64,000 bases of DNA. Origin: Arthrobacter sp. JZ12 (GTDB lineage Bacteria > Actinomycetota > Actinomycetes > Actinomycetales > Micrococcaceae). The position numbers and the translations under genes are program-made. The notes under the pieces are model-generated. The model saw nothing but the letters and a program-made list of their open reading frames with translations, did no database searches and had not been told where the DNA came from. The stretch is taken from NCBI RefSeq assembly GCF_035189165.1, contig NZ_CP045246.1:2914001-2978000 (forward strand). The letters run 5' to 3'. Below, piece after piece: positions 29,487 through 48,057 of the stretch; positions within the stretch are counted from its first letter, which is position 1, and each line of letters opens with the position of its first letter.

Positions 29487-29564
29487 GAAATCTCTTTCGA
29501 CTCTTGGAAACAAGAGAGAACGCCTTCGTCCTCCCCATCAGCCGGTAATGGCCTAGTCGCAAAT

Positions 29565-29579
29565 TGAACGTACTGTTCA
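29565..29579. promoter_or_regulatory. Palindrome TGAAC-N5-GTTCA upstream of the BCCT gene
   Basis: Perfect 5-base arms around GTACT, in the promoter region of the BCCT gene, about 80 bases before its start. The same half-sites recur at the other promoters of this block (29634, 36450, 36581, 42765, 42815), so this is a candidate operator for the IclR regulator at 42917. Confidence 0.5.
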
Positions 29580-29631
29580 TTGTGGGCTAGATCACAAACC
29601 AATACAAGTGTTTTACAAAATTTTGTACGTA

Positions 29632-29650
29632 GCGTTCATCTATTGAACGC
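29632..29650. promoter_or_regulatory. Palindrome GCGTTCA-N5-TGAACGC, candidate IclR operator
   Basis: Perfect 7-base arms around TCTAT. The inner GTTCA-N5-TGAAC core equals the site ahead of the dioxovalerate dehydrogenase gene. A second perfect palindrome, TACAAAATTTTGTA, lies at 29614-29627 between this site and the BCCT start. Confidence 0.6.
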
Positions 29651-29667
29651 AGCAAGCCGAGTGGGCG

Positions 29668-29952
29668 TTACTTGACTTGCGTCGGCGCCGGCGCCGTGGG
29701 CATGGCTGGTGCCGCCTTAGCGCGGGCAAGCCGCGCCAAGGCCGCTACCGCAATGGAGACCCATACGCCGTTCAGCAACACGAAGGCCCAGGCTTCGTTG
29801 TGGAACGCGTTCACGATAAGTCCGGCCGAACCGAACAGATTGCAACTCTGGAACAGCACTCCGTTCCTGATCCAGCCCAGCGAGAATGCGGCATATCCGC
29901 CCAGCACCAGCACCGCACCAAGCCAGCCGGCGATGTCAGCCAAGACAGCCAT
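29668..29952 (-). CDS. Small membrane protein, CBU_0592-like
   Basis: A 94-residue protein with three predicted membrane helices: DIAGWLGAVLVLGGYAAFSL, then LFQSCNLFGSAGLIVNAFHN and AWAFVLLNGVWVSIAVAALA. The order G-x-x-L-V-L-x-x-Y followed by N-x-x-G-S-A-G is that of the CBU_0592 family of small membrane proteins of unknown function. The tail is Ala/Pro-rich. It precedes the BCCT promoter region on the same strand. Confidence 0.65.
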   Translation of the reverse strand: MAVLADIAGWLGAVLVLGGYAAFSLGWIRNGVLFQSCNLFGSAGLIVNAFHNEAWAFVLLNGVWVSIAVAALARLARAKAAPAMPTAPAPTQVK

Positions 29953-30025
29953 CGGTCCCCCACTTTCCCATCAACGACGAACTCGGAATGCAGGCGCTCC
30001 GGCAGAAGCACCCAAAACTGCCTCC

Positions 30026-30811
30026 CTAAAACGGAAGGGGTAGCCGGGCGGTTCTGCCGCCGTCGAGCACTATCACTTCCCCGGTCAGGAAGCCTGAGCG
30101 GTCACTCGCCAGGAAGACGGCCAGATTTCCGACATCCAGCGGCAGGCCCAATCGGCCGACGGGATGGAGCCTGTTGAGCGCCTCCCGGGCAGCATCCGGA
30201 TCAGGCTGGGACGCGAGATAGTCATCGCTCAAATCGGAGGCTATCCACCCCGGCGCGATGGCGTTGCAGCGGATGCCCGCCTCACCGAGATCCAGTGCAA
30301 CCGCCCGTGTCATCCCGTGGATTCCTGCCTTGGACGCACAGTACGCGGCATGCTGCGGGTTGGCGGCAAGACCTTCGATCGAACCGATGTTGATGATGCT
30401 TCCGCCCCCGCGCCGTCGCATGTGCGGCAGGACCGCCTGGGTCAGCAACAACGGGGCGCGGAGGTTCACTGCCATCATGCGGTCCCACTCCTCGAGCCGG
30501 ATCTCCTCGATGCTGCGCTCGAACATCATCCCGGCGTTGTTGACGAGAATGTCGATGCCGCCGAAGTGCCCAACGGTATGCTCCACTGCTTCGGTGATGG
30601 CTTGAGGGTCAGCGATGTCGGCGGTGATACCCAGAACGAGGGGGTGTCCGGAAAGCACCGGCTCAAGTTTCTGGCGCTGGACAATCGCCACCTGTGCGCC
30701 TTCCTCCAGGAACCGGTCGACGACACCCCTCCCGATGCCCCGCCCACCACCGGTAATCAGGGCTACTTTCCCGTCAAGCTCCCTCACGCCCTCCTCACGG
30801 TCCAAGCTCAT
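30026..30811 (-). CDS. SDR family NAD(P)-dependent oxidoreductase
   Basis: A 261-residue classical short-chain dehydrogenase. The cofactor motif is VALITGGGRGIGRG near residue 18, NNAG (ILVNNAGMM) near 88, catalytic Ser in INIGSIEGLAA near 145 and the YxxxK pair in AAYCASKAGIHG near 158-162. It ends with FLTGEVIVLDGGRTA. It is the last gene of a coupled minus-strand group; its ATG overlaps the dehydratase stop (ATGA). In this setting it probably oxidises a sugar acid or hydroxy-acid intermediate, which is inference. Confidence 0.85.
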   Translation of the reverse strand: MSLDREEGVRELDGKVALITGGGRGIGRGVVDRFLEEGAQVAIVQRQKLEPVLSGHPLVLGITADIADPQAITEAVEHTVGHFGGIDILVNNAGMMFERSIEEIRLEEWDRMMAVNLRAPLLLTQAVLPHMRRRGGGSIINIGSIEGLAANPQHAAYCASKAGIHGMTRAVALDLGEAGIRCNAIAPGWIASDLSDDYLASQPDPDAAREALNRLHPVGRLGLPLDVGNLAVFLASDRSGFLTGEVIVLDGGRTARLPLPF

Positions 30812-32505
30812 GATTGGAGGAAATCAAGGTCGGCGCCTTCGGAGGCCTGGACGACGGTAGATGCATAGAGCCTGCTCCAACCGCGTTCCGGAAGCGGGCG
30901 GGGAACAAGGTCGGCCCGCCGGCGCTCCAGTTCTTCCTCGTCGACCAGGAGGTCCACAGTGCGGTTGGGTACATCGAGACGGATGCGGTCGCCGTCGCGC
31001 ACCAAAGCGAGGGGTCCGCCCAGGGCGGCTTCCGGAGCACAGTGAAGGACTATGGTGCCGTAGGCGGTGCCGCTCATCCGCCCATCGGAGATACGAACCA
31101 TGTCGCGCACACCCTGTGCTGCGAGGTATTTGGGAATCGGTATGGAACCGGCTTCGGGCATCCCTGCACCAACGGGACCGATGTTCCGCATCACCAGGAC
31201 GTGGTCGGGTGTGAGTCCCAGCTTTTCATCGTCCAGCCGCGCTTCGACATCCTCCAGGGAGTCGAAGACGCAGGCGGTCCCCTCATGGACCAGCAGATCT
31301 GGGGATGCAGCCGCCGCCTTGAGTACCGCACCCCCGGGAGCGAGGGAACCGGTCAGGGTGACAAGGGTACCTTCCGGTCCGAGCGGGTCATCAAGGGTGC
31401 GGATGGTGTCCTGCCAGTCCTCCGGACCGGTATGGGCCTCTAGCACCTGGCCAAGGGTTTCACCCGTGACGGTGGTGACGCTCAGGTCCAGCATCGGCGC
31501 CAGGGTCCTCAGCAAGGCCGGGACGCCGCCGTCGCGGTGCATGTCCGGCAGGTAGTTCCTGCCCGCCGGCTTGCAGTCGACAAGGAGGGGGACACTGGAT
31601 GCAATTTCGTGGAAGTCCTCCAGGGAGAGCTTCAGTCCGAGCCGCCGCGCGATGGCGGTGAGGTGGATGACGGCGTTGGTGGAGCCGGAAATGGCAGACA
31701 GAACCGTCACGGCATTCCGGAAGGCGCCTTCGGTCATGATCTCTGATGGGCGGCGGCCGGACAGTCCGATTTCGACGGCGCGGCGTCCGGTTTCAACGCC
31801 CAGCCGTAGGCGCTGCGCCGACACCGCCGGTGCGGTGCCGGCGTAGGGCAAGGACATTCCCATGGCCTCGACCAGGCAGGCCATTGTGGAGGCGGTTCCC
31901 ATCACCATGCAGGTGCCCGCAGTGGGAGCCAATTCCTGGTTCACCTCGCCGATACCCGCCTCGTCGATCTTCCCGCCACGGTAGTCGGTCCACATTCGAC
32001 GGCAATCAGTGCAGGCTCCCAGCCGCTCGCCCTTGTAGGACCCGACGGACATGGGGCCGACAACGAGTGCGATGGCAGGAATGTCGGCGCTGGCCGCCGC
32101 CATGAGCTCAGCGGGCACGGTTTTGTCACAGCCGCCCAGCAGCACCACCGAGTCCATGGGCTGGGACTTGATTTGCTCCTCGAGCTCCATGGCCATGAGG
32201 TTGCGGAAAAGCATGGTGGTGGGGTTGGTGAGGATCTCCCCGAGGGACATCACGGGGAAGACAAAGGGCAACCCTCCCGCTTCAAGGACACCGCGCTTCA
32301 CATGCTCGATGAGCTGAGGCATGTCCCGGTGGCAGGTTGTGTAGTCCGAAGAGGTATTGACGATTCCGACAACCGGTCGCTTGAGGTCTTCAGCGTCCAG
32401 ACCTGCCGAGGACAGGAAGGCGCGCCGAAGAAACTTGCTGAAGCCCGGGTCACCGTAGCTCGTTAGCTTGCGGTCGACGCCGATTTCATTCTCGGATCCG
32501 TTCAC
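30808..32505 (-). CDS. IlvD/EDD family dehydratase (sugar-acid type)
   Basis: A 565-residue protein of the iron-sulfur dehydratase family. Landmarks: VVGIVNTSSDYTTCHRDMPQL near residues 45-65, VVLLGGCDKTVPAELMAAAS near 120-140, APTAGTCMVMGTASTMACLV near 190-210 (the three cluster Cys regions), SGSTNAVIHLTAIARRLG near 270-287 and VRISDGRMSGTAYGTIVLH near 470-490. The length and GTAYGTIVLH ending point to the sugar-acid branch (arabinonate/xylonate/gluconate-like) rather than IlvD. It is coupled to the SDR gene downstream, and both follow the enolase-superfamily gene after 124 bases. Confidence 0.85.
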   Translation of the reverse strand: MNGSENEIGVDRKLTSYGDPGFSKFLRRAFLSSAGLDAEDLKRPVVGIVNTSSDYTTCHRDMPQLIEHVKRGVLEAGGLPFVFPVMSLGEILTNPTTMLFRNLMAMELEEQIKSQPMDSVVLLGGCDKTVPAELMAAASADIPAIALVVGPMSVGSYKGERLGACTDCRRMWTDYRGGKIDEAGIGEVNQELAPTAGTCMVMGTASTMACLVEAMGMSLPYAGTAPAVSAQRLRLGVETGRRAVEIGLSGRRPSEIMTEGAFRNAVTVLSAISGSTNAVIHLTAIARRLGLKLSLEDFHEIASSVPLLVDCKPAGRNYLPDMHRDGGVPALLRTLAPMLDLSVTTVTGETLGQVLEAHTGPEDWQDTIRTLDDPLGPEGTLVTLTGSLAPGGAVLKAAAASPDLLVHEGTACVFDSLEDVEARLDDEKLGLTPDHVLVMRNIGPVGAGMPEAGSIPIPKYLAAQGVRDMVRISDGRMSGTAYGTIVLHCAPEAALGGPLALVRDGDRIRLDVPNRTVDLLVDEEELERRRADLVPRPLPERGWSRLYASTVVQASEGADLDFLQS

Positions 32506-32629
32506 GTTCCGTCCTCGATTCCACGATTCGGTTTGATCTCTTCAGCGCAGAGTGTCTCCCCTCCAGGTGGAGGGGAGACACCGCGGACCGTTCCCGTTAC
32601 CAGCCGGTCAAGCGGGCCGGTTGAACCAC

Positions 32630-33754
32630 TCAGTTACCCCATACTGCTACCGGATCGCCCAGGACATCCTCATTGACGTCAAGACCGAGACCGGGACGCT
32701 CCGGAGGAAGGATTCCGCCGTCGCGTCGAATGAAGTCGAATTTCGCGGTCTCAAGGGTCACCATGTCAGCGGTGTTGAGGACACAGCGGAGCTGCTTTTC
32801 GGGAACGGTCGCGCCAAGATGGGCAACCCCTGCGAAAGCGATCGCGGAACCAACGGTGTCCTGCACGCTCACAGTGAGCCCACCTGCCCGGGCGATGTCC
32901 CGCTGCCGGCGTCCGGGCGTGAGGCCACCGGACTTCGAAACCTTCAGGTTGATACCGTCGGCAGCATCCTGGGCGATGGCCCAGATGACGTCTTCGTCCT
33001 GCTGAATGAGTTCATCGAGGATGATCGGGTAGAGACACCGCTGCCGTAGTGACAGCGTCTCGCGGCGGGTGGCACAGGGAGCCTCGATCACGAAGTCGGC
33101 TCCGACAGGCAGCATGGCCTGCATGCGAAGCACGGTTTCCGGAGTCATTCCGCCATTGGCGTCGGCGAAGAAGAATTCACCCGGCTGGCGGTCAGCCAGG
33201 CACGCGCGGATCCTCTCGGCGTCCAGGGCGGGGCCGCCGTCGCTGTCGGCAGTGCCGATTTTGATTGAGTGGCCGCGGTAGCCGCGGGCCCGGTGGTCAG
33301 CGACGCGCGCACGCATTTCCTCGGGCTCCCCGGTGTGGATCGAGGACATCATGGTGAGCGGCTTGCCGGTGGATCCGCCCAGCAGTTCGTAGACAGGCAG
33401 ACCCACGGACTTGCCGAAGATGTCCCAGCAGGCGATGTCCAGCGGCGCCTTCGCGTGGTTGTGTCCAACCAGGGTGGCGTCGAGCAGGTCGTAGTTGCGG
33501 TCAACCTGGCGCGGGTCGCGGCCAAGCAGCGCAGGGGCGAGTTCGGCAATGCCCGCGCGCGCGCCCAGCGCGTGCGCAGCCACGTAGGTGGCGCCGAAGG
33601 GAGTGCTTTCGCCCCAGCCCACCGTCCCGTCATCTGCCGTGATCTTGACGATCGACGCGTCGAAGGATTCGTAGGTGCGGCCGCCGGACAGGTGGTAGAG
33701 GCCGCCGGAGTAGGGCAGGTCTACCTGGAACAGTTCAATGCGCTCGATCTTCAT
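32630..33754 (-). CDS. Enolase-superfamily (mandelate racemase/muconate lactonizing) enzyme, hydroxyproline-like substrate possible
   Basis: A 374-residue protein starting at ATG 33754. The capping domain (residues 1-125) is followed by the barrel. I see catalytic lysines at K165 (GHSIKIG) and K271 (GINLKVSKSGG), and metal ligands D198 (FADANGG), E224 (VIEAPC) and D247 (ILDELI). A Lys-Lys pair is the pattern of the muconate-lactonizing subgroup of racemases, epimerases and dehydratases. The N terminus (ELFQVDLPYSGGLYHLSGGR) recalls cis-3-hydroxyproline dehydratases and hydroxyproline-betaine epimerases; this is recall, not a search result. The MDR dehydrogenase gene lies 16 bases upstream. 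Confidence 0.75.
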   Translation of the reverse strand: MKIERIELFQVDLPYSGGLYHLSGGRTYESFDASIVKITADDGTVGWGESTPFGATYVAAHALGARAGIAELAPALLGRDPRQVDRNYDLLDATLVGHNHAKAPLDIACWDIFGKSVGLPVYELLGGSTGKPLTMMSSIHTGEPEEMRARVADHRARGYRGHSIKIGTADSDGGPALDAERIRACLADRQPGEFFFADANGGMTPETVLRMQAMLPVGADFVIEAPCATRRETLSLRQRCLYPIILDELIQQDEDVIWAIAQDAADGINLKVSKSGGLTPGRRQRDIARAGGLTVSVQDTVGSAIAFAGVAHLGATVPEKQLRCVLNTADMVTLETAKFDFIRRDGGILPPERPGLGLDVNEDVLGDPVAVWGN

Positions 33755-33770
33755 ACTGGATTTCCGTCCC

Positions 33771-34931
33771 TTAGGCGTTGCGGGAGTCTGCTGTTCCGGC
33801 AGCAGGAGGAAGGAGGACAAGTTTGCCGGTGTGCTTCTTCGACAGGAAGTCCTCCTGTGCAACTGCGATGTCGGCCAACGGGTAGGTCCTGGAGACTACG
33901 GGATGGATCTCATTCGCCTCGATGTAGGGCACAAGGTTTTCAAAGACCTCGTCGTCCTGGAAGGTGCAGCCGAAGAGCGTAAGGTCCTTCAGGTAGATGG
34001 TGCGCAGGTCGATCTCGGCAATGGGACCGTTGATGGCCCCGGCAACTGCATACCGGCCACCGGAACGCAGCACATCCAGGAGTGTTGAGGTCTTGGGCCC
34101 GCCCACGATGTCGCAGATGACGTCGACCGAGTTCTTCCCCAGTGCAGCCACAATGTCCGCACCTCGGTCAAGGGTCTGGTCCGCGCCCTGGGCCAGGACC
34201 TGCTCCGCCTTTTCAGGTGAGCAGATTGCGATTACGACGGCGCCACGGCGCTTGGCCAACTGGACCGCGGCAAGGCCTACTCCCCCGGATGCACCGGTGA
34301 CTACAACGCGCTCACCGGTGCACACACCGGCGCGGTGCAGCATATTCTCGGCCGTCGAGTAGGCACACGGTATGGCCGCCAGTTCGGCGTCGCTCCAGTC
34401 GCTGTTGACGGCGTGCGTCTCGCGGGAAGGAGCTACCGTGAACTGGGCGAAGCCGCCGTCGCACTCGCTGCCGAAGGTCCAGCACTCGTAGGGACGGTAA
34501 TCAACGTAGGTGCGCAGCATGTTGCGGACCAGGACCCGCTCGCCGATTCGCTCGGAAGACACGCCGTCGCCGACCGCGACGATCCGTCCGCACACATCAG
34601 CACCCTGGATGCGCGGGAAGGTGAGCGCCTGACCGGACCACGCGGCGTCATCGTCGGTGATTGTCTCGAAACCGGCGGCTCCGCCCGCGTTGGTTTCCGA
34701 GGAGACTGCCTTGGAATACCAGCCGATACGGGTGTTGATGTCGGTGTTGTTGATGGCAGAGGCGCCCACCTCGATGAGTACCTCGCCCTGTCCCGGCCGG
34801 GGAACGGCGACGTCGGTGCGGTATTCGAGCTTGTCAAGTCCGCCGTGCCCCGTGAGGACTGCGGCTTCCATCGTTTTGGGCAAGTCAACGCCCGCCTCAG
34901 TGCGAGCTGCAGTGAGTACTTCTCCGGTCAT
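33771..34931 (-). CDS. Medium-chain (MDR) zinc-type alcohol dehydrogenase/quinone reductase
   Basis: A 386-residue protein starting at ATG 34931 with AAAGGAG upstream. It has GQGEVLIEVGASAINNTDIN near residue 50, RIQGADVCGRIVAVGDGVSS near 105-124, the Rossmann motif RVVVTGASGGVGLAAVQLAKRRGAV near 210-235, and GRYAVAGAINGPIAEIDLR near 300. Such proteins oxidise alcohols or reduce enones with NAD(P). It is the first gene of the minus-strand group MDR, enolase-like, dehydratase, SDR. The start region has two GTTCGCTGGT copies (34951 and 34971). Confidence 0.82.
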   Translation of the reverse strand: MTGEVLTAARTEAGVDLPKTMEAAVLTGHGGLDKLEYRTDVAVPRPGQGEVLIEVGASAINNTDINTRIGWYSKAVSSETNAGGAAGFETITDDDAAWSGQALTFPRIQGADVCGRIVAVGDGVSSERIGERVLVRNMLRTYVDYRPYECWTFGSECDGGFAQFTVAPSRETHAVNSDWSDAELAAIPCAYSTAENMLHRAGVCTGERVVVTGASGGVGLAAVQLAKRRGAVVIAICSPEKAEQVLAQGADQTLDRGADIVAALGKNSVDVICDIVGGPKTSTLLDVLRSGGRYAVAGAINGPIAEIDLRTIYLKDLTLFGCTFQDDEVFENLVPYIEANEIHPVVSRTYPLADIAVAQEDFLSKKHTGKLVLLPPAAGTADSRNA

Positions 34932-34976
34932 CCTGATCGAACTCCTTTGTTCGCTGGTGATTTCCACGATGTTCGC

Positions 34977-35016
34977 TGGTAGGTCCGCAGGGACCACGGA
35001 TCCTGCGGACCTACCA
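34977..35016 (-). terminator. Terminator after the MFS gene
   Basis: A perfect 15-bp stem with a 10-base loop follows the MFS stop at 35031 on the minus strand. It lies upstream of the MDR dehydrogenase gene and so would separate the MFS transcript from the downstream catabolic operon. Confidence 0.75.
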
Positions 35017-35030
35017 GTTCTGTTACTGAT

Positions 35031-36374
35031 TTAGACGGAGGCTGACGCCTCGCTGAGGCTCATGCCCCTCGTTTCGGGAGCCCACATCTGGGAGATCACA
35101 GCCCCGATCACGCAGATGCCCGCCGCGATGAGCATCGTGACGCCCACACCCAGGCCGCTAACCGACAGCGGCAGAATGAAGGTTCCGGCCGCCGCACCGA
35201 TACGGGACACGGCAGTGGCGAAACCGACCCCGGCACCGCGTATCTCGGTGGGGAAAACTTCTCCCGGGTAAACCCCGGTCAGGGCCGTGGAAACCGCGTT
35301 GGCGAAGGAGAAGAGAATGAAGCAGGTCAGGATGATCAGCGGGGATACCTGAGCGAAGAGGCCGATGACAATCAGCGCGGCGGCGCCGATCCACTGCGGC
35401 GGAATGGCCAGCTTGCGGCGTCCGACCCGCTCGATGAGGAACATGGCGGCAAGGGCGCCGGCAACCACGAACCCGTTCAGCAGGAGGGCGCCGGTCAGTC
35501 CGTCCTCAAGCCCGAAGCTTTCCAGGACGATGGGCGCGAAGGTCGCGATCGCGAAGTAGGGCGTGACGTTGCAGACCCAGTAGATGGACACAAATGCTGT
35601 GGCCTTGCGGTACTGGGGTGAGAACAGTCGCCAGACGCTGGTCTTTCGCACTTCTTCGCGGATCACATCCTCCACTTCCGCCTCTTCCATGTACTCACGG
35701 GCGATGGCGTGTCCTTCCTCAACGCGTCCCTTGCTGATCAGCCAGCGCGGAGACTCCGGCGTTCCGAGGCGGAGCAGGAAAACGATGAGGGAAGGAACCG
35801 TGCTCATGCCCAAAATGATGCGCCAGTCGGCACTCAGGGCGGAGGACATGTAGTAACCCACGGCGTAGGCGAGAAGGTACCCGACGTACCAGGCCACTTC
35901 CTGGAAGGCCAGGAGCTTGCCGCGCAAACGCGTAGGAGCGAACTCGGCTAACAGCGGCCAGCCAATCGCGTAGTCCGCGCCGATCGCCATGCCCATCAGC
36001 AGGCGGATGATGAAGAGCTGAATTTCATCGGTAACGAAGAATTGCGCTACAGAGCCCGCCAGGAAGATGGCCAGGTCGATGATGAACATCGGCTTGCGGC
36101 CGAACTTGTCGGCGAAGTAGCCGCCAAGGGGCCCACCAAGGAAGATGCCGATCAGGGCTGAAGCACCGATGAGGCCCTGCCAAACGAATGACAAGCCAAG
36201 ATCGGCAGTCATTGCAGGAATGACAAGTCCGATTCCACCAAGGATGAAACCGTCGATGAACATGCCACCGGCGATCACGCCGCTGAGCTTGATTAGGAAC
36301 CGGCTCTTCTTCGGGTCCGTTCCGAGTTGCGGCTTGGACCCGTCTTCAGAGCGGCGGGAAACAGTAGATTGCAC
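35031..36374 (-). CDS. MFS transporter (sugar/organic acid porter type)
   Basis: A 447-residue, twelve-helix transporter. GTG 36374 is chosen as start because AAGGAAG lies five bases upstream; ATG 36455 has no such site and would lie in an operator. Typical porter marks are PLGGYFADKFGRKPMFIID (loop 2-3), GMAIGADYAIGWPLLAEFAPTRLRGKL (helix 4-5), SPRWLISKGR after helix 6, ERVGRRKLA in loop 8-9 and PTEIRGAGVGFATAVSRIGAA. It is divergent from the dioxovalerate dehydrogenase gene, so the pair probably responds to one regulator and imports the substrate of this block. Confidence 0.85.
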   Translation of the reverse strand: MQSTVSRRSEDGSKPQLGTDPKKSRFLIKLSGVIAGGMFIDGFILGGIGLVIPAMTADLGLSFVWQGLIGASALIGIFLGGPLGGYFADKFGRKPMFIIDLAIFLAGSVAQFFVTDEIQLFIIRLLMGMAIGADYAIGWPLLAEFAPTRLRGKLLAFQEVAWYVGYLLAYAVGYYMSSALSADWRIILGMSTVPSLIVFLLRLGTPESPRWLISKGRVEEGHAIAREYMEEAEVEDVIREEVRKTSVWRLFSPQYRKATAFVSIYWVCNVTPYFAIATFAPIVLESFGLEDGLTGALLLNGFVVAGALAAMFLIERVGRRKLAIPPQWIGAAALIVIGLFAQVSPLIILTCFILFSFANAVSTALTGVYPGEVFPTEIRGAGVGFATAVSRIGAAAGTFILPLSVSGLGVGVTMLIAAGICVIGAVISQMWAPETRGMSLSEASASV

Positions 36375-36449
36375 TGTGACTTCCTTGTCTGGAAATTGCT
36401 TGTACGTCAAGAGAGCGCCATCATGAGCGCTGGCGAAGGAACGAGGGAT

Positions 36450-36464
36450 GTTCATTCACCGAAC
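36450..36464. promoter_or_regulatory. Candidate IclR operator GTTCA-N5-CGAAC
   Basis: One mismatch from the GTTCA-N5-TGAAC palindrome; spacer TTCAC. It lies 76 bases before the MFS start in the 242-base divergent region. Confidence 0.45.
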
Positions 36465-36580
36465 ACGGTGGTCAAATATGACATTGAGCACACTGGCGAG
36501 TCAAGGCGTGATCAACATTACGAAGCGATGCCCTGCGGCCTTTGACTGTGACCTAGGGTACACATAAAATTGAATATGGT

Positions 36581-36595
36581 GTTCACATTCTGAAC
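36581..36595. promoter_or_regulatory. Candidate IclR operator GTTCA-N5-TGAAC
   Basis: A perfect palindrome with spacer CATTC, immediately upstream of the AGGAGG ribosome-binding site (36607-36612) of the dioxovalerate dehydrogenase gene. It overlaps or follows the likely transcription start, which fits repression. Its arms and most of its spacer equal the site at 42815 ahead of iclR. Confidence 0.6.
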
Positions 36596-36616
36596 CCATT
36601 ACCCTAGGAGGAAACC

Positions 36617-38209
36617 GTGACTCTCACCGGACATTCCCTAATCGCCGGCCAGTCCGTTGCTGGCGAAGGCCCGACTACGGCCGGATTCAATCCAGCTACC
36701 AACGAAGCTCTGACGCCGGAATACTCGCTGCTCACCGCAGAGCAGTTGAAGGCTGCGACAGCGGCCGCAGCCGAAGCGTACCCGTCCTTCAGTACTCTCG
36801 ATCCCGAAACGCACGCCGCATTCCTGGACGCTATCGCGGACAATATCGAAGCCCTGGGCGACGAATTGATCACGCGTGCCTGCCAGGAAACCGGTCTCCC
36901 GACCGCCAGGATCGAGGGCGAGCGCAAGCGCACAACGGGCCAACTGCGGCTCTTCGGCGAGGTTGTCCGCCAGGGTGACTTCCGCGGGGTCCGCATCGAT
37001 CCCGCCATCCCGGACCGCACTCCGCTCCCCCGTGCCGACATCCGCCAGCGACAGATCCCACTCGGACCGGTTGCCGTCTTCGGTGCCAGCAACTTCCCGC
37101 TTGCTTTCTCGACCGCCGGCGGTGACACGGCCTCTGCACTGGCCGCAGGCTGCCCTGTGGTCTTCAAGGCCCACAATGCACACCCGGGTACGGGTGAGCT
37201 TGTCGGTCAGGCCATCACTAAGGCTGTCAAGCAGTTCAATCTGCACCCCGGCGTCTTCTCGCTGGTCTACGGGCCGGGTGCCAGCATCGGGCAGGCACTG
37301 GTGGCCGATCCACACATCAAAGCTGTTGGTTTCACGGGTTCGCAGGCCGCAGGCGTTTCCCTGATGCGCACCGCCGCGGCGCGTCCGGAGCCGATTCCGG
37401 TCTACGCCGAAATGTCGTCCCTCAATCCGGTCTTCGTTTTCGAGGGCGCCCTCAAGGGTGACATCGATGCCCTCGCTCAGCAGTACGTGGCATCGGTGAC
37501 AGGAAGTTCCGGGCAGCTCTGCACCTCGCCCGGGCTGCTGTTCGCCCCTGTCGGTGAAGCGGGCGACCGCTTCGCCGCCGCCGTCGGACGCGCCGTCAGC
37601 GCCTGCGCGGGCCAAACCATGCTGACCGAAGGTATCGCCGGCTCCTGGCGCACCGGAACCGAGAATCTTCGCTCCGCCGATAATGTGACGGTGATCGGAG
37701 AAGGCACCGCCGGGTCCACCGAGAACGCCCCGGCGCCGGCTATTTTCGGTACCCGCGTGGAGGACTTCGTGACCAACCACGTTCTGCATGAAGAGATTTT
37801 CGGTGCAGCTTCGCTGGTCATCCGCTACGGCTCCGTGGCAGAACTCATGGAGGCCACCGCACGTATCGAAGGCCAGCTCACAGCTTCGCTCCAGCTGACC
37901 GAAGAGGACTACGCGACGGCAGCTCAACTTATTCCCCTTCTGGAACAGAAGGTTGGCCGCATCATTGTCAACGGCTGGCCCACCGGCGTCGAGGTTGGTC
38001 ACGCGATGGTGCACGGCGGACCGTTCCCGGCCACCTCGGACTCACGCAGCACGTCCGTTGGCACACTTGCCATCAACCGCTTCCTGCGCCCGGTGGCGTA
38101 CCAGAATCTCCCTCAGGAGCTGCTCCCGCAGCCGCTCCAGGACAGCAACCCCTGGCACCTCAATCGCCGCATCAACGGCACGGTTGAGGCTGCGGAAGCC
38201 CGGGTCTAG
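36617..38209 (+). CDS. 2,5-dioxovalerate (2-oxoglutarate semialdehyde) dehydrogenase
   Basis: A 530-residue aldehyde dehydrogenase starting at GTG 36617 behind AGGAGG. It has the features of the KGSADH branch: ARIEGERKRTTGQLRLFGEVV near residues 97-117, VFGASNFPLAFSTAGGDTAS near 154-173, AEMSSLNPVFVFEGAL with E265, and the catalytic Cys in SSGQLCTSPG (C302). The C terminus has NGWPTGVEVGHAMVHGGPFP, typical of this branch. It oxidises 2-oxoglutarate semialdehyde to 2-oxoglutarate, the last step in hydroxyproline, glucarate and non-phosphorylative pentose breakdown. Confidence 0.88.
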   Translation: MTLTGHSLIAGQSVAGEGPTTAGFNPATNEALTPEYSLLTAEQLKAATAAAAEAYPSFSTLDPETHAAFLDAIADNIEALGDELITRACQETGLPTARIEGERKRTTGQLRLFGEVVRQGDFRGVRIDPAIPDRTPLPRADIRQRQIPLGPVAVFGASNFPLAFSTAGGDTASALAAGCPVVFKAHNAHPGTGELVGQAITKAVKQFNLHPGVFSLVYGPGASIGQALVADPHIKAVGFTGSQAAGVSLMRTAAARPEPIPVYAEMSSLNPVFVFEGALKGDIDALAQQYVASVTGSSGQLCTSPGLLFAPVGEAGDRFAAAVGRAVSACAGQTMLTEGIAGSWRTGTENLRSADNVTVIGEGTAGSTENAPAPAIFGTRVEDFVTNHVLHEEIFGAASLVIRYGSVAELMEATARIEGQLTASLQLTEEDYATAAQLIPLLEQKVGRIIVNGWPTGVEVGHAMVHGGPFPATSDSRSTSVGTLAINRFLRPVAYQNLPQELLPQPLQDSNPWHLNRRINGTVEAAEARV

Positions 38210-38229
38210 CGGGTACACCCGCAAGTCCA

Positions 38230-38277
38230 GAGGAACGGCGTCGTGCCGGCTTGAGGGCCAGCACGACGCCGTTCCTC
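38230..38277 (+). terminator. Terminator after the dioxovalerate dehydrogenase gene
   Basis: A perfect 17-bp stem with a 14-base loop, followed by TTTT on the plus strand, 20 bases after the stop codon. A classical intrinsic terminator. Confidence 0.92.
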
Positions 38278-38317
38278 TTTTCGAGTGCGCCAGCCTTCTA
38301 TTTCACTGCTTAAACGG

Positions 38318-38358
38318 CTCCGACCCTGGGGGCTACGTGAGCGTCCCCAGGGCCGGAG
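38318..38358 (-). terminator. Hairpin after the SnoaL-like gene
   Basis: A 14-bp stem with one mismatch (CTCCGACCCTGGGG against CCCCAGGGCCGGAG) and a 13-base loop, placed downstream of the minus-strand monooxygenase operon. The T-run on the minus strand is short (GTTTAAG). Confidence 0.6.
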
Positions 38359-38416
38359 GTTTGGCGCTGGTCGTGCGGCGGGCGGTTAGGCAGGCACCGC
38401 GACCTAGAAGTTGCCG

Positions 38417-38821
38417 CTAACCCAGGTGCCAGATGCCGAGAGCGGAGAGCAGCTCCCGGGGATCCCAGACCACCCACTCCTCGGCCAGTTTGTCGTCCTC
38501 GAACCGGAGGAACGAGGCCCCCGTCACCGTGACGCTGCGACCGGTGGCAGGCACGTCCATGAACTCACCCTGGTGGGTACCCTTGGTCTGCCAGTGGATG
38601 GCAGCTGTAGCACCGTCCTCCACAATGTGCAGGATCTCCGTGGTGGTGTCCGGGAAAGCGGCATGCGTTGCTTCAATGGTCTTTCGAAGCGTTGCATAGT
38701 CCTCGCTGCCGGACTTGGAGCGGCGGACGTAGTCCGGGCTGAGCATCTCTTCGAAGGGGGTCAGGTCCCCGTCACCCCACGCACGGTTCCACGCATTGAG
38801 GATAGTTGTCTGACGGGTCAT
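38417..38821 (-). CDS. SnoaL-like (NTF2 fold) protein
   Basis: A 134-residue protein of the ester cyclase/SnoaL group: TTILNAWNRAWGDGDLTPFEEMLSPDYV at the N terminus, then FPDTTTEILHIVEDGATAAIHW and HQGEFMDVPATGRSVTVTGAS, ending LAEEWVVWDPRELLSALG. These small alpha+beta barrels act as cyclases, isomerases or hydrolases; the role here is not known. Its start overlaps the stop of the flavin reductase gene (ATGA), making it the last gene of the operon. Confidence 0.82.
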   Translation of the reverse strand: MTRQTTILNAWNRAWGDGDLTPFEEMLSPDYVRRSKSGSEDYATLRKTIEATHAAFPDTTTEILHIVEDGATAAIHWQTKGTHQGEFMDVPATGRSVTVTGASFLRFEDDKLAEEWVVWDPRELLSALGIWHLG

Positions 38822-39393
38822 GATGCACTCCTTGCGGGCTCCGAAGCCGACTGTACCGGCTGCGCCGGCGCTGGGATTTCAATGGGGAGGTACTTGCCGA
38901 ACTTGCCGCCCCGGAAGATCAGGGCGCTTCCGTCGCCTTCACTCATGTGCGTGATGGATCCAACCACCATGTAGTGGTCACCGACTACTACTTCCGCAGT
39001 CACTACGCAGTCGATGTACGCAGTAGCACCGTTCAGGTGCGGCGTTCCGAGAGGACCCTTGGTGCAGGGAATGCCTGAGAACTTTTCGGGGCCCTTTCGC
39101 GACAGCGACCGGCAGATGCTGACCTGATCGTCAGAGAGGATGTTCGCAGTGAACTTCTGCAGCTTGCGCAGTTTCGGCCAACTCGAGGAGCCCTTGTCAA
39201 CACAGAACATGACCAGGGGCGGTTCCAGCGAGAGGGACTGGAATGTACCGACAACCAGGCCAAGCTTCTCGTCGTCGTCGTTGGTTCCGGTGATGGCTAC
39301 AACGCCGGTCGGAAGTTTGCCTAGTACCTGCCGATAGTAGGCGGGCGTGATGTCGTTATCCGGCGTAATTTCCGAGGATGGGGTGATGTCCAT
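38818..39393 (-). CDS. Flavin reductase family protein
   Basis: A 191-residue protein with the flavin-reductase (split beta-barrel) pattern: YYRQVLGKLPTGVVAITGTN near residue 20, LVVGTFQSLSLEPPLVMFCVD near 45-65, SSSWPKLRKLQKFTANILSDDQ near 68-90, and GDHYMVVGSITHMSEGDGSALIFRGGKFG near 138-166. Such enzymes reduce FMN or FAD with NAD(P)H and supply it to a partner monooxygenase. It is the second of two flavin reductases in this operon, and they share about half of their key residues; the tail is Ala/Pro/Ser-rich. Confidence 0.85.
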   Translation of the reverse strand: MDITPSSEITPDNDITPAYYRQVLGKLPTGVVAITGTNDDDEKLGLVVGTFQSLSLEPPLVMFCVDKGSSSWPKLRKLQKFTANILSDDQVSICRSLSRKGPEKFSGIPCTKGPLGTPHLNGATAYIDCVVTAEVVVGDHYMVVGSITHMSEGDGSALIFRGGKFGKYLPIEIPAPAQPVQSASEPARSAS

Positions 39394-39437
39394 GAGGATT
39401 CCTTTTACGGGTCTCTGATTGGGCGACGATGCCCTGG

Positions 39438-39959
39438 CTAGGAGGACGGAATGAGGTTTTCCCTGAAGCTGCCGAAGCGGCCACCATGAAAAATCAGGGG
39501 TGAGCCTTCACTGTGCGCCATGTCGATGACGCTCGCAATGACCACAATGTGATCACCTGCCACGAACTGCTGCTCTACGCGGCAGTCGAACCAGGCCAGG
39601 GCACCCTGGATGTGCGGGTTGCCCCACTCGGACTCTGACCAGGCAACTGAGCGCAGCTTGTCCTCGCCCTTCGACGAAAGCGCCCGGCAAACCTGCTGCT
39701 GGTCTTCCGCCAGCAGGCTGATGCTGAACGTCGAGGCGTCCGCAATTTTCGGCCAACTGGTGGAGGAATCCATAACGCTGAAGGTCACCAGCGCCGGTTC
39801 CATGGAGAGGGAGGCGAACGTCCCGACGATCATGCCGTTCTGGACGCCGGTGGTCCGGTCCGTTGAGCAGACCGCGGCAACTCCGGTGGGCAGGTGGCGC
39901 ATGACCGCGCGGTACGTGTCAGAACTGATGGGCCGCGCAGCAAGAGCGTTAACACTCAT
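39438..39959 (-). CDS. Flavin reductase family protein
   Basis: A 173-residue paralogue of the next gene: YRAVMRHLPTGVAAVCSTD, then MIVGTFASLSMEPALVTFSVM, STSWPKIADASTFSISLLAEDQ and GDHIVVIASVIDMAHSEGSPLIFHGGRFG. The expected role is to feed reduced flavin to the LLM monooxygenase of the same operon. Its ATG overlaps the stop of the amine oxidase gene by four bases. Having two reductases for one monooxygenase is unusual; one may have another partner. Confidence 0.85.
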   Translation of the reverse strand: MSVNALAARPISSDTYRAVMRHLPTGVAAVCSTDRTTGVQNGMIVGTFASLSMEPALVTFSVMDSSTSWPKIADASTFSISLLAEDQQQVCRALSSKGEDKLRSVAWSESEWGNPHIQGALAWFDCRVEQQFVAGDHIVVIASVIDMAHSEGSPLIFHGGRFGSFRENLIPSS

Positions 39960-41257
39960 GACTGTGCCTTCAGCTCTGCATCGACATCGCGGCTGGCACG
40001 CAGACCGGATTCGATGGCGCCGTCGAAGAAGCCTGCCCAGATATTCGCAATGTCACTGCTGGCGAAGTGCAGTGCGCCTTCGCTGGCCTGCTGTGCTGCG
40101 TGGTACTTGGTGAGCTGGCCGGGGCGCTGGATCTGCCAGGTCTCCTCGGCGTACGGGTCTTCGCCCCACTTGTGGCCGGTGACCTCGATAACCTCGAGGT
40201 CGTCGCGCCAGACGCGAATGGCTTCCTGGATCTGCTCGGGGTCGGTGACATCGATGCGGTTGGCGTCGGCGCCGAAGCCGACCAGCACGGCGTCGGTGTC
40301 GCTGACGAACTCGGTGCGGATGACCGAGAGCGGCTTGTCCTGCGCGGAGTAGGCGAAGAACGGCTTGATGGGTCCCTTGACCCGGATCCAGGCCTTCACG
40401 CCCTGTGATGCGGTGCGTTCCCGGCTCGGGGCGAGCTTGCCCTCGGAGAGCGCCGGCTGGACATCAAGCTTGTGGAGAATGTTCTGCGGAAGGGTGATGA
40501 CAACCTTCTTGGCAGTGATTTCCCGACCGTCACCGTAGGTGACGGTGGCGCCGTCGTCGGTGTGGCGCACGGAGGTGACCGGGGAGTTCAGGCGGATGTC
40601 GGCGTCGGCGTCGGCCGCAATGGCCTTGACGAGGGTGTCATTGCCGTTCTTGAGGCGGAAGATGGCCGAGGCCTCGTGCATCAGGTGCCAGTGCCCGGAG
40701 GACCCGGCGGTCCAGCGCAGCGCGTTGACGTACGCGCACTGATCCAGCGGCGCGTTGAAGTGGCCCACCCAGGCGGCCTCGTTGGCGTTGCGCTCATCCA
40801 CGGACAGGTCCAGCTTGTCCAGCATTTCCTGCAGGTTGTACTGGTCAACCTCGGCCAGGTCCGGGTTGGTCAGTGGGGCGTCGGGGCGGGGCAGCCACTT
40901 CATGGTGTCCTCGAGGACCCGGGTCATGCCGGGGTCGATGAGGTTCATGAAGTCATCCAGGTTGCCGCGGCGGACTTCGTCGCCGGCCAGCCAGTAGGTC
41001 TCCTCCGAACGCGGCCCGCGGGAAACCTCAAGGCCGTACCGGGTCACCTCAGCCCACACGTGCGGCTGGGTCCAGTGCAGCCAGTTCCCGCCAAGCTCGA
41101 GGTTCTGGTCCAGGCGGCGCTCGGTGTACACGCGGCCGCCGAGGCGCTCACGGGCTTCCAGGACAACCACCTCGTGACCGCGGTTGCCCAGTTCACGGGC
41201 GGTGATCAGGCCGGCAAGACCGGCACCGATGACGACGACGTCAGTCTGTTCAGTCAT
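39956..41257 (-). CDS. FAD-dependent amine oxidase
   Basis: A 433-residue flavoprotein oxidase. The FAD motif is VVVIGAGLAGLITARELGNRGHEVVVLEARERLGGRVY at residues 7-44 (GxGxxG then E and GGR), followed by LELGGNWLHWTQPHVW, a substrate-region VVITLPQNILHKLDV and a C-terminal HFASSDIANIWAGFFDGAIESGLR (the second FAD-binding segment). It belongs to the monoamine oxidase/putrescine oxidase superfamily but differs clearly from the putrescine oxidase at 56957. It may oxidise the amine released or exposed by the LLM monooxygenase. Confidence 0.85.
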   Translation of the reverse strand: MTEQTDVVVIGAGLAGLITARELGNRGHEVVVLEARERLGGRVYTERRLDQNLELGGNWLHWTQPHVWAEVTRYGLEVSRGPRSEETYWLAGDEVRRGNLDDFMNLIDPGMTRVLEDTMKWLPRPDAPLTNPDLAEVDQYNLQEMLDKLDLSVDERNANEAAWVGHFNAPLDQCAYVNALRWTAGSSGHWHLMHEASAIFRLKNGNDTLVKAIAADADADIRLNSPVTSVRHTDDGATVTYGDGREITAKKVVITLPQNILHKLDVQPALSEGKLAPSRERTASQGVKAWIRVKGPIKPFFAYSAQDKPLSVIRTEFVSDTDAVLVGFGADANRIDVTDPEQIQEAIRVWRDDLEVIEVTGHKWGEDPYAEETWQIQRPGQLTKYHAAQQASEGALHFASSDIANIWAGFFDGAIESGLRASRDVDAELKAQS

Positions 41258-41298
41258 GTGATGTATCTTTCGTTGCAGTAGCGGTTGGGGCGGTGGAC

Positions 41299-42699
41299 CT
41301 AGCGGCTTGCTTCGCTGAGGTTGCGGGCGCGCTGGCTGGTTGCAGGGTGACCCTCCAGGGTGTACTTGTGGCCGGGGAAGAGCTTCTCCCGCAGCGTCAC
41401 GGGCGCCTCATCATCGGACCGGGCGGGGGCGACGATGCCCTGCTCACGGAGCAGCGGAAGCGCCAACTCGATGAAGTCTTCCCAGCCGCCGGGCTTGGTG
41501 GTGTAGCTCAGGTTGACACCGTCGATGTCGGCCTCATCCCGCCACCGGCGCAGTTCGGCAGCAACGGTTTCAGGTGAGCCCACGATCGTGCATCCGGTGC
41601 CGCCGACAGCCAGGAACTCTGCGATCTGGCGCGGGGTCCAGTCGCGGTCCGGGTCCGCCTTGGAGAACATGTCGACCATCGACTGGCCGGCCTTCGTTCC
41701 GACAGAGCGCAGCGGGGTGTCCAGTTCATACTCGGACATATCAATGCCGGTCCAGCCGCTGAAACGGGCGAGGATCGCGTCGACCGGTGCGTTATCGACT
41801 GCCTTCTGGTACTTCGCCTGGGCTTCCTCATCCGTGGGTGCAACGACAACCGTGAGCAGGATGATGATCTTGACATCGCGCGGATCCCGCCCTGCGTCGG
41901 AAACGGCCTGGCGAAGCTTTGCCGAGGTGCGCTTGGCGCCTTCCACGGAGGTGCTCTGGATGAAGACAGCTTCGGCGTGCTTACCGCCGAACTCCATGCC
42001 CCTGGAAGAGGAGCCGGCCTGGAAAAGAACGGGAGTGCGCTGCGGGGACGGCTCGCACAGATGGAAGCCCGGGACCGTAAAGTGCTGGCCCGAGTGGTTG
42101 ATCTGGTGCACCTTGGCGGGATCGATGTAGGTCGCGGATTCGACGTCGCGGACCACGGCGTCTTCCTCGTAGGAGCTCTCCCAGAGCTTGTACACAACGT
42201 CCATGTATTCGTCAGCCATGTCATAACGCTCGGCCGGAGTGAGCTGCTGCTCCTTGCCCAGGTTCCGGGCAGCAGCCTCGGAGTAGGACGTCACAATGTT
42301 CCAGCCCACGCGGCCGCCCGTGAGGTGGTCCAGGCTGCTGAACTTGCGCGCGAGCAGGTACGGCGGCTCGTAGGTTGCCGAGCAGGTTACGCCGAAGGTC
42401 AGGTGCTTGGTCACTGCGGCCATCCCGCTGATCAGTACGGTTGGGTCGTTGATCGGAATCTGCGCAGCGTCGCGCAGAGCCGCATCCCCGTTGCCCCGGT
42501 ACACGTCGTGGTAGCCGACGTTGTCAGCGAAGAAGATGCCGTCGAAGCCGGCCTTCTCAAGCTTCTGGGCAATCCCCGTCCAGTACTGCAGATCGGTGTA
42601 GCGGTAACCCTGGTCGCCTTCCGTGCGCCAGGACCCGGAGGTCAGGTGCGAGGGAGCGAACACGTCGAAGGCGAAAAGGCTCAGGGGTTCATTCTTCAT
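41299..42699 (-). CDS. LLM-class flavin-dependent monooxygenase (NtaA/SnaA/DszA group)
   Basis: A 466-residue luciferase-like monooxygenase. ATG 42699 is preferred (AAGGAAG upstream) over ATG 42750, which sits in the operator region. Diagnostic parts are AFDVFAPSHLTSGSWRTEGD, GFDGIFFADNVGYHDVY, ISGMAAVTKHLTFGVTCSATYEPPYLLARKFSSLDHLTGGR and GWNIVTSYSEAAARNLG, all of the NtaA/SnaA/DszA/SoxA branch. Members use reduced FMN and oxygen to cleave C-N or C-S bonds or to open pyridine-type rings (NtaA, DszA, PyrA, TgnB). It heads an operon with amine oxidase, two flavin reductases and a SnoaL-like protein. Confidence 0.88.
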   Translation of the reverse strand: MKNEPLSLFAFDVFAPSHLTSGSWRTEGDQGYRYTDLQYWTGIAQKLEKAGFDGIFFADNVGYHDVYRGNGDAALRDAAQIPINDPTVLISGMAAVTKHLTFGVTCSATYEPPYLLARKFSSLDHLTGGRVGWNIVTSYSEAAARNLGKEQQLTPAERYDMADEYMDVVYKLWESSYEEDAVVRDVESATYIDPAKVHQINHSGQHFTVPGFHLCEPSPQRTPVLFQAGSSSRGMEFGGKHAEAVFIQSTSVEGAKRTSAKLRQAVSDAGRDPRDVKIIILLTVVVAPTDEEAQAKYQKAVDNAPVDAILARFSGWTGIDMSEYELDTPLRSVGTKAGQSMVDMFSKADPDRDWTPRQIAEFLAVGGTGCTIVGSPETVAAELRRWRDEADIDGVNLSYTTKPGGWEDFIELALPLLREQGIVAPARSDDEAPVTLREKLFPGHKYTLEGHPATSQRARNLSEASR

Positions 42700-42755
42700 G
42701 GCAGCGGTGCTTCCTTGGACTCGTGCCGAGCTATAGGCGGCTTGGTTCATTCACA

Positions 42756-42779
42756 GTTCATTTTTGAACACTGCGTTCA
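42756..42779. promoter_or_regulatory. Overlapping GTTCA/TGAAC half-sites at the LLM operon promoter
   Basis: GTTCA (42756) and TGAAC (42765) face each other across 4 bases, and the same TGAAC with GTTCA (42775) makes TGAAC-N5-GTTCA, the arrangement seen at 29565. The cluster lies 57 to 80 bases before the LLM start. Confidence 0.5.
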
Positions 42780-42814
42780 ATCTATGATGTAACGAAACTC
42801 ACTGTCAAGAGCTT

Positions 42815-42829
42815 GGTCACATTGTGAAC
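42815..42829. promoter_or_regulatory. Candidate autoregulatory IclR operator GGTCA-N5-TGAAC
   Basis: One mismatch from GTTCA-N5-TGAAC; spacer CATTG differs by one base from the spacer at 36586. It lies 88 bases upstream of the preferred iclR start and inside a longer, less likely coding start (GTG 42824). Confidence 0.55.
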
Positions 42830-42916
42830 GGCTGGTTCGATCAGTACCGGCGCGTAGGATTGAAGGGTAAGGAAAAGGGCAGGATCAGCCCGACTCGGAC
42901 GGCGAAGCGGAGCGAA

Positions 42917-43738
42917 ATGGCACTGGGACGAGGCGCATCATCGATGGACGCAGACGAGGCCGGGAGCTCATCGGGCAGCCAGGAGCCGTTTGACCTTATT
43001 AACAAATCGGTGGTGAAGGCCACTCTGCTGCTGCGTGAACTCGGCCGCCACCGCAACGGCATCAATGTCACCGAGCTTGCGCAAACTGTGGGAATGTCGC
43101 GGCCCACAGCTTTCCGCCTGCTGCTGAGCCTGGAGCACACCGGCTTCGTTGAACGCACCGACAACCGCTACATGCTGGGTTGGCAGGTCGCACATTTGGG
43201 CAGGCTTGCCGACCCCTTTGCCGCAGCGGTCTCCCGCACGCAGCCCATCCTCGATGAGTACGCAAAGAAGGTCAACGAGACGTTGAGCTTCGTGATCGTC
43301 AGGGCGGAGGGTGAAACCGATCATGTGGTCATCGCCGAGGCCTCCGGAACCCGCTATCTGAGCGCCTCACACCAGTACCTCGGTGGCACCTACCCGCTGC
43401 ATGCGAGCGCCACCGGCAAGGTCATTCTTGCCGAACAAAGCGACGAGAAGATCGCCGCTACCCTTCCTGACACACTTGAGGCATTAACTGAGCACACCAT
43501 CACCAGCCGCGACGCCCTGATGGAAGAACTGAAGCAGGTCCGCGAACAGGGCTATGCGCTTCTCGATAACGAACTTGAAGAAGGTCTTTTCGCCATCGGC
43601 TGTCCTGTGCGCGATGCGGGCGTCCTCATCGGCGTAGTGACGGTACAGGGCCCGACTGAGCGGCTGAAGTCCCAGCTGTCCGAGAACATCACTGAATTGC
43701 ATAACGCAGCTGAGGAAATCACCCGCGCACTGACATAG
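42917..43738 (+). CDS. IclR family transcriptional regulator (monooxygenase block)
   Basis: A 273-residue regulator from ATG 42917 (AGCGGAG upstream); GTG 42824 is also in frame but lies in the operator. Residues 35-95 are the winged helix-turn-helix (SVVKATLLLRELGRHRNGINVTELAQTVGMSRPTAFRLLLSLE), and the effector domain has AHLGRLADPFAAAVSRTQPIL, YPLHASATGKVILAEQ near 180 and QGYALLDNELEEGLFAIGCPV near 220, the usual IclR ligand pocket. It is divergent from the LLM operon. The palindromes shared by several promoters of this block make it the likely regulator of them all. Confidence 0.88.
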   Translation: MALGRGASSMDADEAGSSSGSQEPFDLINKSVVKATLLLRELGRHRNGINVTELAQTVGMSRPTAFRLLLSLEHTGFVERTDNRYMLGWQVAHLGRLADPFAAAVSRTQPILDEYAKKVNETLSFVIVRAEGETDHVVIAEASGTRYLSASHQYLGGTYPLHASATGKVILAEQSDEKIAATLPDTLEALTEHTITSRDALMEELKQVREQGYALLDNELEEGLFAIGCPVRDAGVLIGVVTVQGPTERLKSQLSENITELHNAAEEITRALT

Positions 43739-47088: not shown

Positions 47089-47191
47089 ACTGCTTACGTT
47101 ATGTGAAATGTTGGCACGTTTTCCAAGTGCCAGTCAACGGAAAAGAGCGCAAATTACGCTCTTCGAGGGCGTGATTAGCACCACACGAGGA

Positions 47192-47992: not shown

Positions 47993-47994
47993 AC

Positions 47995-48039: not shown

Positions 48040-48057
48040 GAACCGAGCTTAGCTGCC

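Follow-up and report, generated by a model that had tools for sequence, protein, structure and literature searches.

A 64,000-nucleotide stretch of the Arthrobacter sp. JZ12 genome (contig NZ_CP045246.1, positions 2,914,001 to 2,978,000 of the forward strand; hereafter the window, numbered from its first letter) carries, at about 27–48 kb, a block of transport and catabolic genes whose promoters bear strings of alternating TGAAC and GTTCA boxes, together with the gene for an IclR-family regulator, IclR1, which is proposed to read these boxes. The basic unit of the strings is a polar three-box element, TGAAC-N5-GTTCA-N5-TGAAC, not a plain palindrome; it is conserved together with the regulator and takes a defined position relative to promoter-like sequences. 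A first-pass annotation of the same DNA had assigned uptake and breakdown to a single IclR regulon, a proposal that comparative evidence supports.

The block begins with a BCCT transporter gene (27511–29486, minus strand), whose frame is broken between an N-terminal stretch and the main open reading frame (ORF; 27511–29178). Its start, ATG 29486, was set by comparison with the BCCT genes of two related loci, L046 and L102, which are intact; in the window gene the first ~50 residues lie in another frame than the remainder, and either a true mutation or a fault of the assembly could account for this. An operon-like run on the minus strand follows, encoding an SDR oxidoreductase (30026–30811), an IlvD/Edd-type dehydratase (30808–32505), an enolase-superfamily enzyme of the mandelate racemase/muconate lactonizing type (32630–33862), a protein of the zinc-type alcohol dehydrogenase family (33771–34997), and an MFS transporter of the sugar porter/aromatic acid symport type (35031–36455, likely start near 36374); the zinc alcohol dehydrogenase gene probably belongs to the MFS operon, to judge by direction and spacing alone. 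Divergent from this run lies an aldehyde dehydrogenase (ALDH) gene (36617–38209, plus strand), which had been labelled a dioxovalerate dehydrogenase; the general assignment stands, whereas its listed NCBIfam matches, the dioxovalerate type included, fall far below their cut-offs and leave the subfamily unsettled. A second minus-strand run comprises two HsaB/FerA-like flavin reductases (38818–39393 and 39438–39959, below NCBIfam cut-offs), a flavin amine oxidase-like enzyme (39956–41257; PF01593), and an LLM flavin-dependent monooxygenase of the NtaA/DmoA family (41299–42750; likely start ATG 42699, from sequence; TIGR03860 at 510 bits, above cut-off), the nearest solved chain of which is 6ak1, a dimethyl-sulfide monooxygenase. 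Family, solved-structure and literature searches did not identify the substrate of the pathway; betaines or sulfur compounds are guesses.

The ORF of IclR1 opens at 42824 (42824–43738, plus strand), with a likely start at ATG 42917 or 42944. The protein belongs to the IclR family (HTH_IclR, PF09339, 49.6 bits; IclR_C, PF01614, 109.3 bits; both above cut-offs), and its nearest subfamily model is that of PcaR/PcaU/PobR, TIGR02431, which it matches at 145.6 bits, below the cut-off of 284.75 for membership. Matches to IclR1 at E ≤ 1e-30 occur in six of 97 related genomes, its own included, and the 37 other genomes of the same genus yield a single match, at 35% identity. LLM homologues within the genus are at most 51% identical among the matches listed; identity reaches 84–91% in several Arthrobacter-group loci and 66–72% in others. 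Because IclR1 is rare in the genus and the LLM enzyme has closer relatives in scattered loci, the block was probably acquired horizontally.

Six box-containing sites had been reported in this block, and a scan of the window finds all of them where they were placed: GTTCA-N5-TGAAC occurs exactly at 29634 and 36581 and with one mismatch at 36450 and 42815, and the reverse arrangement, TGAAC-N5-GTTCA, occurs exactly at 29565 and 42765. The two arrangements had been taken as two kinds of site; they are instead overlapping parts of strings in which alternating boxes have their centres spaced one helical turn apart. All six had also been described as intergenic. Two of them, at 36450 and 42815, fall inside the MFS and IclR1 ORFs when these are drawn at their longest possible extent; since the family matches begin well inside these ORFs, the real starts probably lie downstream and both sites are probably intergenic. 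The sole further copy of GTTCA-N5-TGAAC in the window at ≤1 mismatch, at 49742, lies within a ribokinase-like gene.

The enrichment that had been claimed for the palindrome is mild for two boxes and pronounced for three. At ≤2 mismatches the two-box palindrome occurs 19 times in the window against 17.6 expected, and at ≤1 mismatch the window holds five of the 76 copies in the genome (binomial P = 0.016); as a functional unit it was rejected on these counts. The reverse arrangement (40 matches at ≤2 mismatches against 17.4 in shuffles) is scattered across the entire window. The three-box element, by comparison, has eight matches at ≤3 mismatches against 0.86 expected, a number reached in none of 100 shuffles, and just one of the eight, at 7072, lies outside the block. 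At ≤2 mismatches, five of the 15 matches in the whole genome fall in the window (P = 7e-6), so that the element is not equally frequent elsewhere; four of the other ten are parts of two four-box strings. In view of the mild enrichment of the palindrome by itself, the three-box element is taken as the functional unit. Conservation of its third box is 94–100% per position, in a set preselected for ≤1 mismatch.

Three of the window operators abut promoters. The LLM operator (42756–42779, minus strand), GTTCA-N4-TGAAC-N5-GTTCA, matches all 15 box letters with a palindrome spacer of four instead of five, so that the site at 42765, correctly located before as a reverse arrangement, is part of a full three-box element; it has one base in common with a promoter (42779–42808, minus strand) composed of −35 TTGACA, 18 bp and −10 TAGATT, and LLM orthologues have the same upstream layout. 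The MFS operator (36450–36474, minus strand; GTTCA-N5-CGAAC-N5-GGTCA, two mismatches) abuts a promoter at 36475–36504 (minus strand; −35 TTGACT, 18 bp, −10 CATATT), and comparable −10 regions, GTGTCATATT or ATGCCATATT, lie upstream of MFS orthologues. The ALDH operator (36571–36595, plus strand; TGAAT-N5-GTTCA-N5-TGAAC, one mismatch) follows directly on a promoter at 36542–36570 (plus strand; −35 TTGACT, 17 bp, −10 TAAAAT). These σ70-like promoters, in each of which the −10 hexamer abuts an operator, are the three found by a consensus promoter scan of 36400–42900, against 0.9 expected.

Two further promoters had been tied to the regulon. Ahead of the BCCT gene, a proximal operator (29565–29579, minus strand), 79 bp upstream of the ATG, consists of an exact TGAAC-N5-GTTCA with a degenerate third box (three mismatches over 29555–29579), and a distal element (29624–29648, no strand assigned) reads TGTAC-N5-GTTCA-N5-TGAAC, with one mismatch; the BCCT genes of L046 and L102 also have several sites ahead of them. 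A possible autoregulatory site of iclR1 (42815–42839, no strand assigned) is a weaker element, GGTCA-N5-TGAAC-N5-GTTCG, with two mismatches, or three when read in the opposite direction at 42805–42829; one- or two-mismatch sites stand ahead of iclR1 in seven other loci (L046, L047, L049, L050, L051, L054, and L102). Of the five promoters, those of LLM, MFS and ALDH have strong support and that of BCCT has good support; iclR1, with its two to three mismatches, has the weakest. Directly adjoining the BCCT operator is TGTGGGCTAGATCACA (29581–29596), one mismatch from a CRP/GlxR-like consensus, which at ≤2 mismatches occurs three times in the window against 0.66 expected (five of 100 shuffles reach three); elsewhere, seven of the 72 sites that were examined have a TTGTGG string after them. 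Carbon catabolite control may be superimposed on the regulon.

Conservation was examined in loci collected by scanning 84,980 species genomes with an IclR alignment, which gave 88 relatives; the best 80 were kept, yielding 76 loci that were divided by identity listing into 52 closer ones (L046–L096 and L102; 1.009 Mb) and 24 remote ones, the latter including some paralogue loci with the same recognition helix. In the 52 closer loci the N5/N5 element has 32, 67 and 123 matches at zero, one and two mismatches, in 19, 35 and 43 loci; all other gaps from 2 to 9 give 0–3 matches and a reversed-letter control 0–2 at ≤2 mismatches. Because L071 and L079 overlap, the 123 matches correspond to 121 unique ones, and 67 oriented sites to 66. 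The corresponding counts in the remote loci are 0, 2 and 5, so that at ≤2 mismatches sites are present in 43 of 52 loci with close IclR1 relatives and in 4 of 24 remote loci; two of these four have an RPTVFR helix and two have no IclR gene called by the script. Among the 67 matches at ≤1 mismatch, 53 are intergenic, six lie in called genes but within their first 100 bp, six in small unnamed ORFs and two in other coding sequence, in DNA of which 86.7% is called coding; genes were called with a simple GC-frame script, and the intergenic counts are therefore approximate.

Gene order varies among these loci and the sites stay: in Arthrobacter, Gordonia, Streptomyces, and Nocardiopsis they recur at the promoters of BCCT, IclR1 and flavin reductase genes and in the LLM/MFS, LLM/IclR1 and MFS/ALDH divergent regions. 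The element is thus conserved at the orthologous promoters of other species, as a regulon predicts. When matches are oriented by polarity, 70 of the 121 stand ahead of a window-gene homologue (start within 500 bp downstream or ≤120 bp upstream of the element), against 8.2% of random positions, with LLM (30), MFS (12) and IclR1 (11) as targets. Across whole genomes the association with IclR1 is looser: at ≤1 mismatch, a three-box match is present in four of six genomes with an IclR1 match and in 17 of 91 without (21/97 overall; Fisher P = 0.019); the same search at ≤2 mismatches was discarded as too loose, with 139 of 147 relatives matching. As a control, BCCT homologues of other genomes were taken together with 1.5 kb of flanking DNA, and none of these 19 loci contains a three-box site at ≤3 mismatches; BCCT matches exist in 46 of 57 genomes, the own genome included. 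In genome G073, which has no IclR1 match, TTTCA-like outer boxes round GTTCA-N5-TGAAC recur in six rows on contigs C199, C302, and C318 in the manner of a repeat family, and in the JZ12 genome (G000) the same sequence surrounds GTTCATGCCGAGAAC at C1:2741027 and C1:2743731 (L043), two copies 2.7 kb apart that suggest a duplicated stretch.

Aligned elements are asymmetric, with A+T-rich sequence in the palindrome spacer and a GYNRC type in the other. Orientation by this asymmetry reveals a TTGACA-like hexamer (≤1 mismatch), with its first base at −33 to −28 relative to the element, in 36 of the 66 oriented sites, at −29 or −28 in 32 of those 36; on the mirror side such a hexamer is found in 1 of 66, and at random in 1.7%. 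The bases immediately preceding the element are A+T-rich and −10-like. By sequence geometry the element overlaps the −10 region or start point at the three window promoters and at these 36 sites elsewhere. Paired sites lie 119–122 bp apart in 16 of 40 listed pairs (one listed twice), and the window pair 36450/36571 is 121 bp apart; since two promoters back to back, each with an abutting operator, give this distance, DNA looping between paired sites is not needed to explain it. A reading of the sites as chance matches or functionless repeats could appeal to two-box matches, which at ≤2 mismatches do not exceed expectation and of which 76 occur genome-wide at ≤1 mismatch; it is contradicted by the three-box statistics, the specificity of spacing, the cross-genus conservation at the same genes, and the fixed promoter geometry, and is hardly credible.

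The recognition helix, which in IclR1 is SRPTAFRLL, bears on which regulator reads the boxes. Where the best IclR of a locus has an RPT[AV]FR helix, a site at ≤2 mismatches is present in 40 of 45 loci: the RPTAFR form occurs in 38 of the 52 closer loci, 34 of which have a site, and the RPTVFR form in five closer and two remote loci, six of these seven with a site. Sites at ≤2 mismatches are absent from nine remote loci whose helices differ clearly; the script found no IclR gene in 14 of the 76 loci, three of which carry a site. Taken with the spacing, placement, shared targets and promoter geometry described above, these data make the boxes very probably operators of IclR1. Operators of a TetR-type or other dyad-binding regulator, for which a TetR gene adjoining one distant four-box string (in L042) might be cited, are highly improbable: no TetR was identified among the block genes examined, 43 of the 52 loci that were gathered for their similarity to IclR1 bear the boxes, and an arrangement of three boxes in alternating direction has been described for IclR proteins (Suvorova and Gelfand, 2021; PMC8222616).

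Another IclR, or several jointly, might read the boxes instead. A second IclR gene of the window, iclR2 (47192–47992), which the first-pass annotation had not considered, encodes the helix SLPTTLRIL, with leucine at the position of an arginine in IclR1 that is listed as critical in TtgV and PobR (PMC8222616; helix positions were equated by eye). This comparison speaks against IclR2 as the reader, as do two other observations: IclR2 is the best window match of no called gene in the 76 loci, and the promoter of the thiamine diphosphate (ThDP)-enzyme gene beside it bears a different string, TTTCA-N5-TGAAA plus another TGAAA in the same 10-bp phase (47074–47110), possibly an IclR2 operator with a different box. 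Between the end of gdh and the start of IclR2, an inverted repeat (47994–48040) with 21-nt arms, 90% complementary and 5 nt apart, may be a terminator or an operator of IclR2. A paralogue elsewhere in the JZ12 genome (G000:C1:2767734–2768423) is another candidate reader, being 39% identical to IclR1 with a similar helix, PRATTFRLL, and lying about 1 kb from a four-box string (G000:C1:2769452–2769486; L025, 9453–9487). That string, probably the paralogue's own operator, lies between an HpcH/HpaI aldolase gene and an FAA-hydrolase-like gene whose Pfam match falls narrowly short of the cut-off. The same boxes also occur at paralogous clusters of other genomes (L047, 13455/13465; L095; L098), and the presence of IclR1 is not independent evidence, since the loci were collected by its similarity. 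For the block itself, reading by IclR2, the paralogue or several IclRs together is nevertheless quite unlikely, and IclR1 remains the preferred reader.

The boxes also stand at two places outside the block, and at one of these the paralogous IclR could be the reader. The other is a four-box string 275 kb from iclR1 (G000:C1:3232010–3232044; L042, 10011–10045), which adjoins the TetR gene mentioned above and precedes a lone riboflavin kinase domain gene by some 300 bp, with a possible small ORF between. At E ≤ 1e-20 the kinase protein matches one of 43 related genomes, its own, and homologues of the domain occur in seven of the 76 IclR loci (tblastn, E ≤ 1e-8). In Arthrobacter cavernae (L051) an exact element is centred 42 bp upstream of a homologue with 57% identity; the other six homologues have no element at ≤2 mismatches within 600 bp upstream. 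The kinase may supply flavin mononucleotide (FMN) for the LLM monooxygenase. A three-box match with two mismatches also lies ~300 bp upstream of a BCCT paralogue (G000:C1:633138–633162).

From these features we infer binding, the oligomeric state of the regulator, the sign of control, an inducer and the link to the riboflavin kinase. Acting probably as a dimer, or as two dimers joined, IclR1 would read three alternating half-sites one helical turn apart, in the order −10 hexamer, TGAAC, GYNRC spacer, GTTCA, A+T-rich spacer, TGAAC, gene. Because the element begins at the end of the −10 hexamer, IclR1 bound there would lie over the transcription start, blocking RNA polymerase; a pathway metabolite would then release it and switch on all target genes together. 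These would be the monooxygenase operon (LLM, amine oxidase and flavin reductases), the MFS–dehydrogenase–dehydratase operon, the aldehyde dehydrogenase and BCCT, and probably also iclR1 and the distant riboflavin kinase gene as a possible supplier of FMN. A switch of this type is well supported but ordinary for bacteria.

Repression appears likelier than activation, and is the simplest reading since the operators would cover the start point. PcaU and PobR activate from upstream sites. That IclR1 acts mainly as an activator in their manner would agree with its nearest subfamily model, with the BCCT-distal site upstream of the presumed promoter, and with the 30 of 66 sites that have no −35 hexamer at the distance expected for repression; such a role is unlikely in view of the 36 other sites and the three window promoters, at which the element starts at the −10 end over the start point, as fits repression.

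Several observations weigh against this reading. Nine of the 52 closer loci have no site at ≤2 mismatches (L058, L060, L072, L084, L087, L089, L091, L092, and L096), and four of these (L058, L060, L072, and L091) nonetheless have the RPTAFR helix. The counts are not independent events, since many sites represent the same promoter in related species; 17 of the 91 genomes without an IclR1 match bear a three-box match at ≤1 mismatch, and the BCCT control homologues, at 51–67% identity, are not strict orthologues. Because 30 of the 66 oriented sites have no recognisable −35 at the fixed distance, some sites may work otherwise; neither for the BCCT site nor for either of the distant four-box strings does the consensus scan give a promoter, and the site of iclR1 itself is poor. 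Cross-talk is also possible, as the paralogue could read the same boxes. A more far-reaching model is somewhat less likely than not to be right: a polar, odd-numbered box string would be the functional unit, with one IclR complex per start point and direction set by the unequal spacers flanking the middle box; the code would reach the riboflavin kinase gene 275 kb away and be shared by the close paralogue, and the regulon would control uptake, oxidation and FMN supply of a horizontally acquired DmoA-like pathway.

The regulon offers a testable handle on an uncharacterised catabolic pathway that is patchy in Arthrobacter, Streptomyces, Gordonia, and Nocardiopsis: with the operator sequence in hand, one can search for the remaining pathway genes and screen for the inducer and hence the substrate. 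It is not named in the titles and abstract openings of the literature searched; the supplementary tables of PMC8222616 could still list it.

Among known systems, the closest frame is the class of three-box IclR sites of alternating direction, which spans 32 orthologous groups and has PcaU, PobR, and HmgR as described cases, and in which a group 1 pair (GKTYCRYW3-4RYGRAMC) is combined with a group 2 pair (TGRAACAN1-2TGTTYCA; Suvorova and Gelfand, 2021; PMC8222616). By sequence the window elements belong to this class: their alternating boxes form one group 1 and one group 2 pair, and the N4/N5 variation fits W3-4. They differ from the class as given there in their GTTCA/TGAAC boxes, their defined polarity relative to the −10 hexamer, and a regulon built round an LLM monooxygenase. 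PcaU and PobR of Acinetobacter and PcaR, whose subfamily model is nearest to IclR1 (below cut-off), have GTTCG or GTCCG as their box where the window has GTTCA (PMC8222616), and PcaU needs its third box (Popp et al., 2002, cited in PMC8222616). No β-ketoadipate genes were identified among the window genes examined. The window sites lie on the start point, whereas the PcaU site lies upstream. NpdR of Rhodococcus opacus, likened here by description only, is an actinobacterial catabolic regulator with GTTC/TGA half-sites at similar spacing (GTTCMRYATMRTGAWS); it differs in having two boxes as given in PMC8222616 and in serving trinitrophenol genes. PheR of Sphingobium is an IclR-family repressor whose footprint, +23 to −21, likewise covers the start of a catabolic operon and which, by the title of the article, regulates both uptake and catabolism (PMC13273656); its operator core, GCAACG, its substrate, phenanthrene, and its host set it apart. 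To these systems the present analysis adds a box code and regulon for this group, together with the polarity of the element and its promoter geometry; polarity and a fixed promoter distance yield concrete predictions for the use of three boxes by IclR proteins, which PMC8222616 leaves as a question of alternative dimerization.

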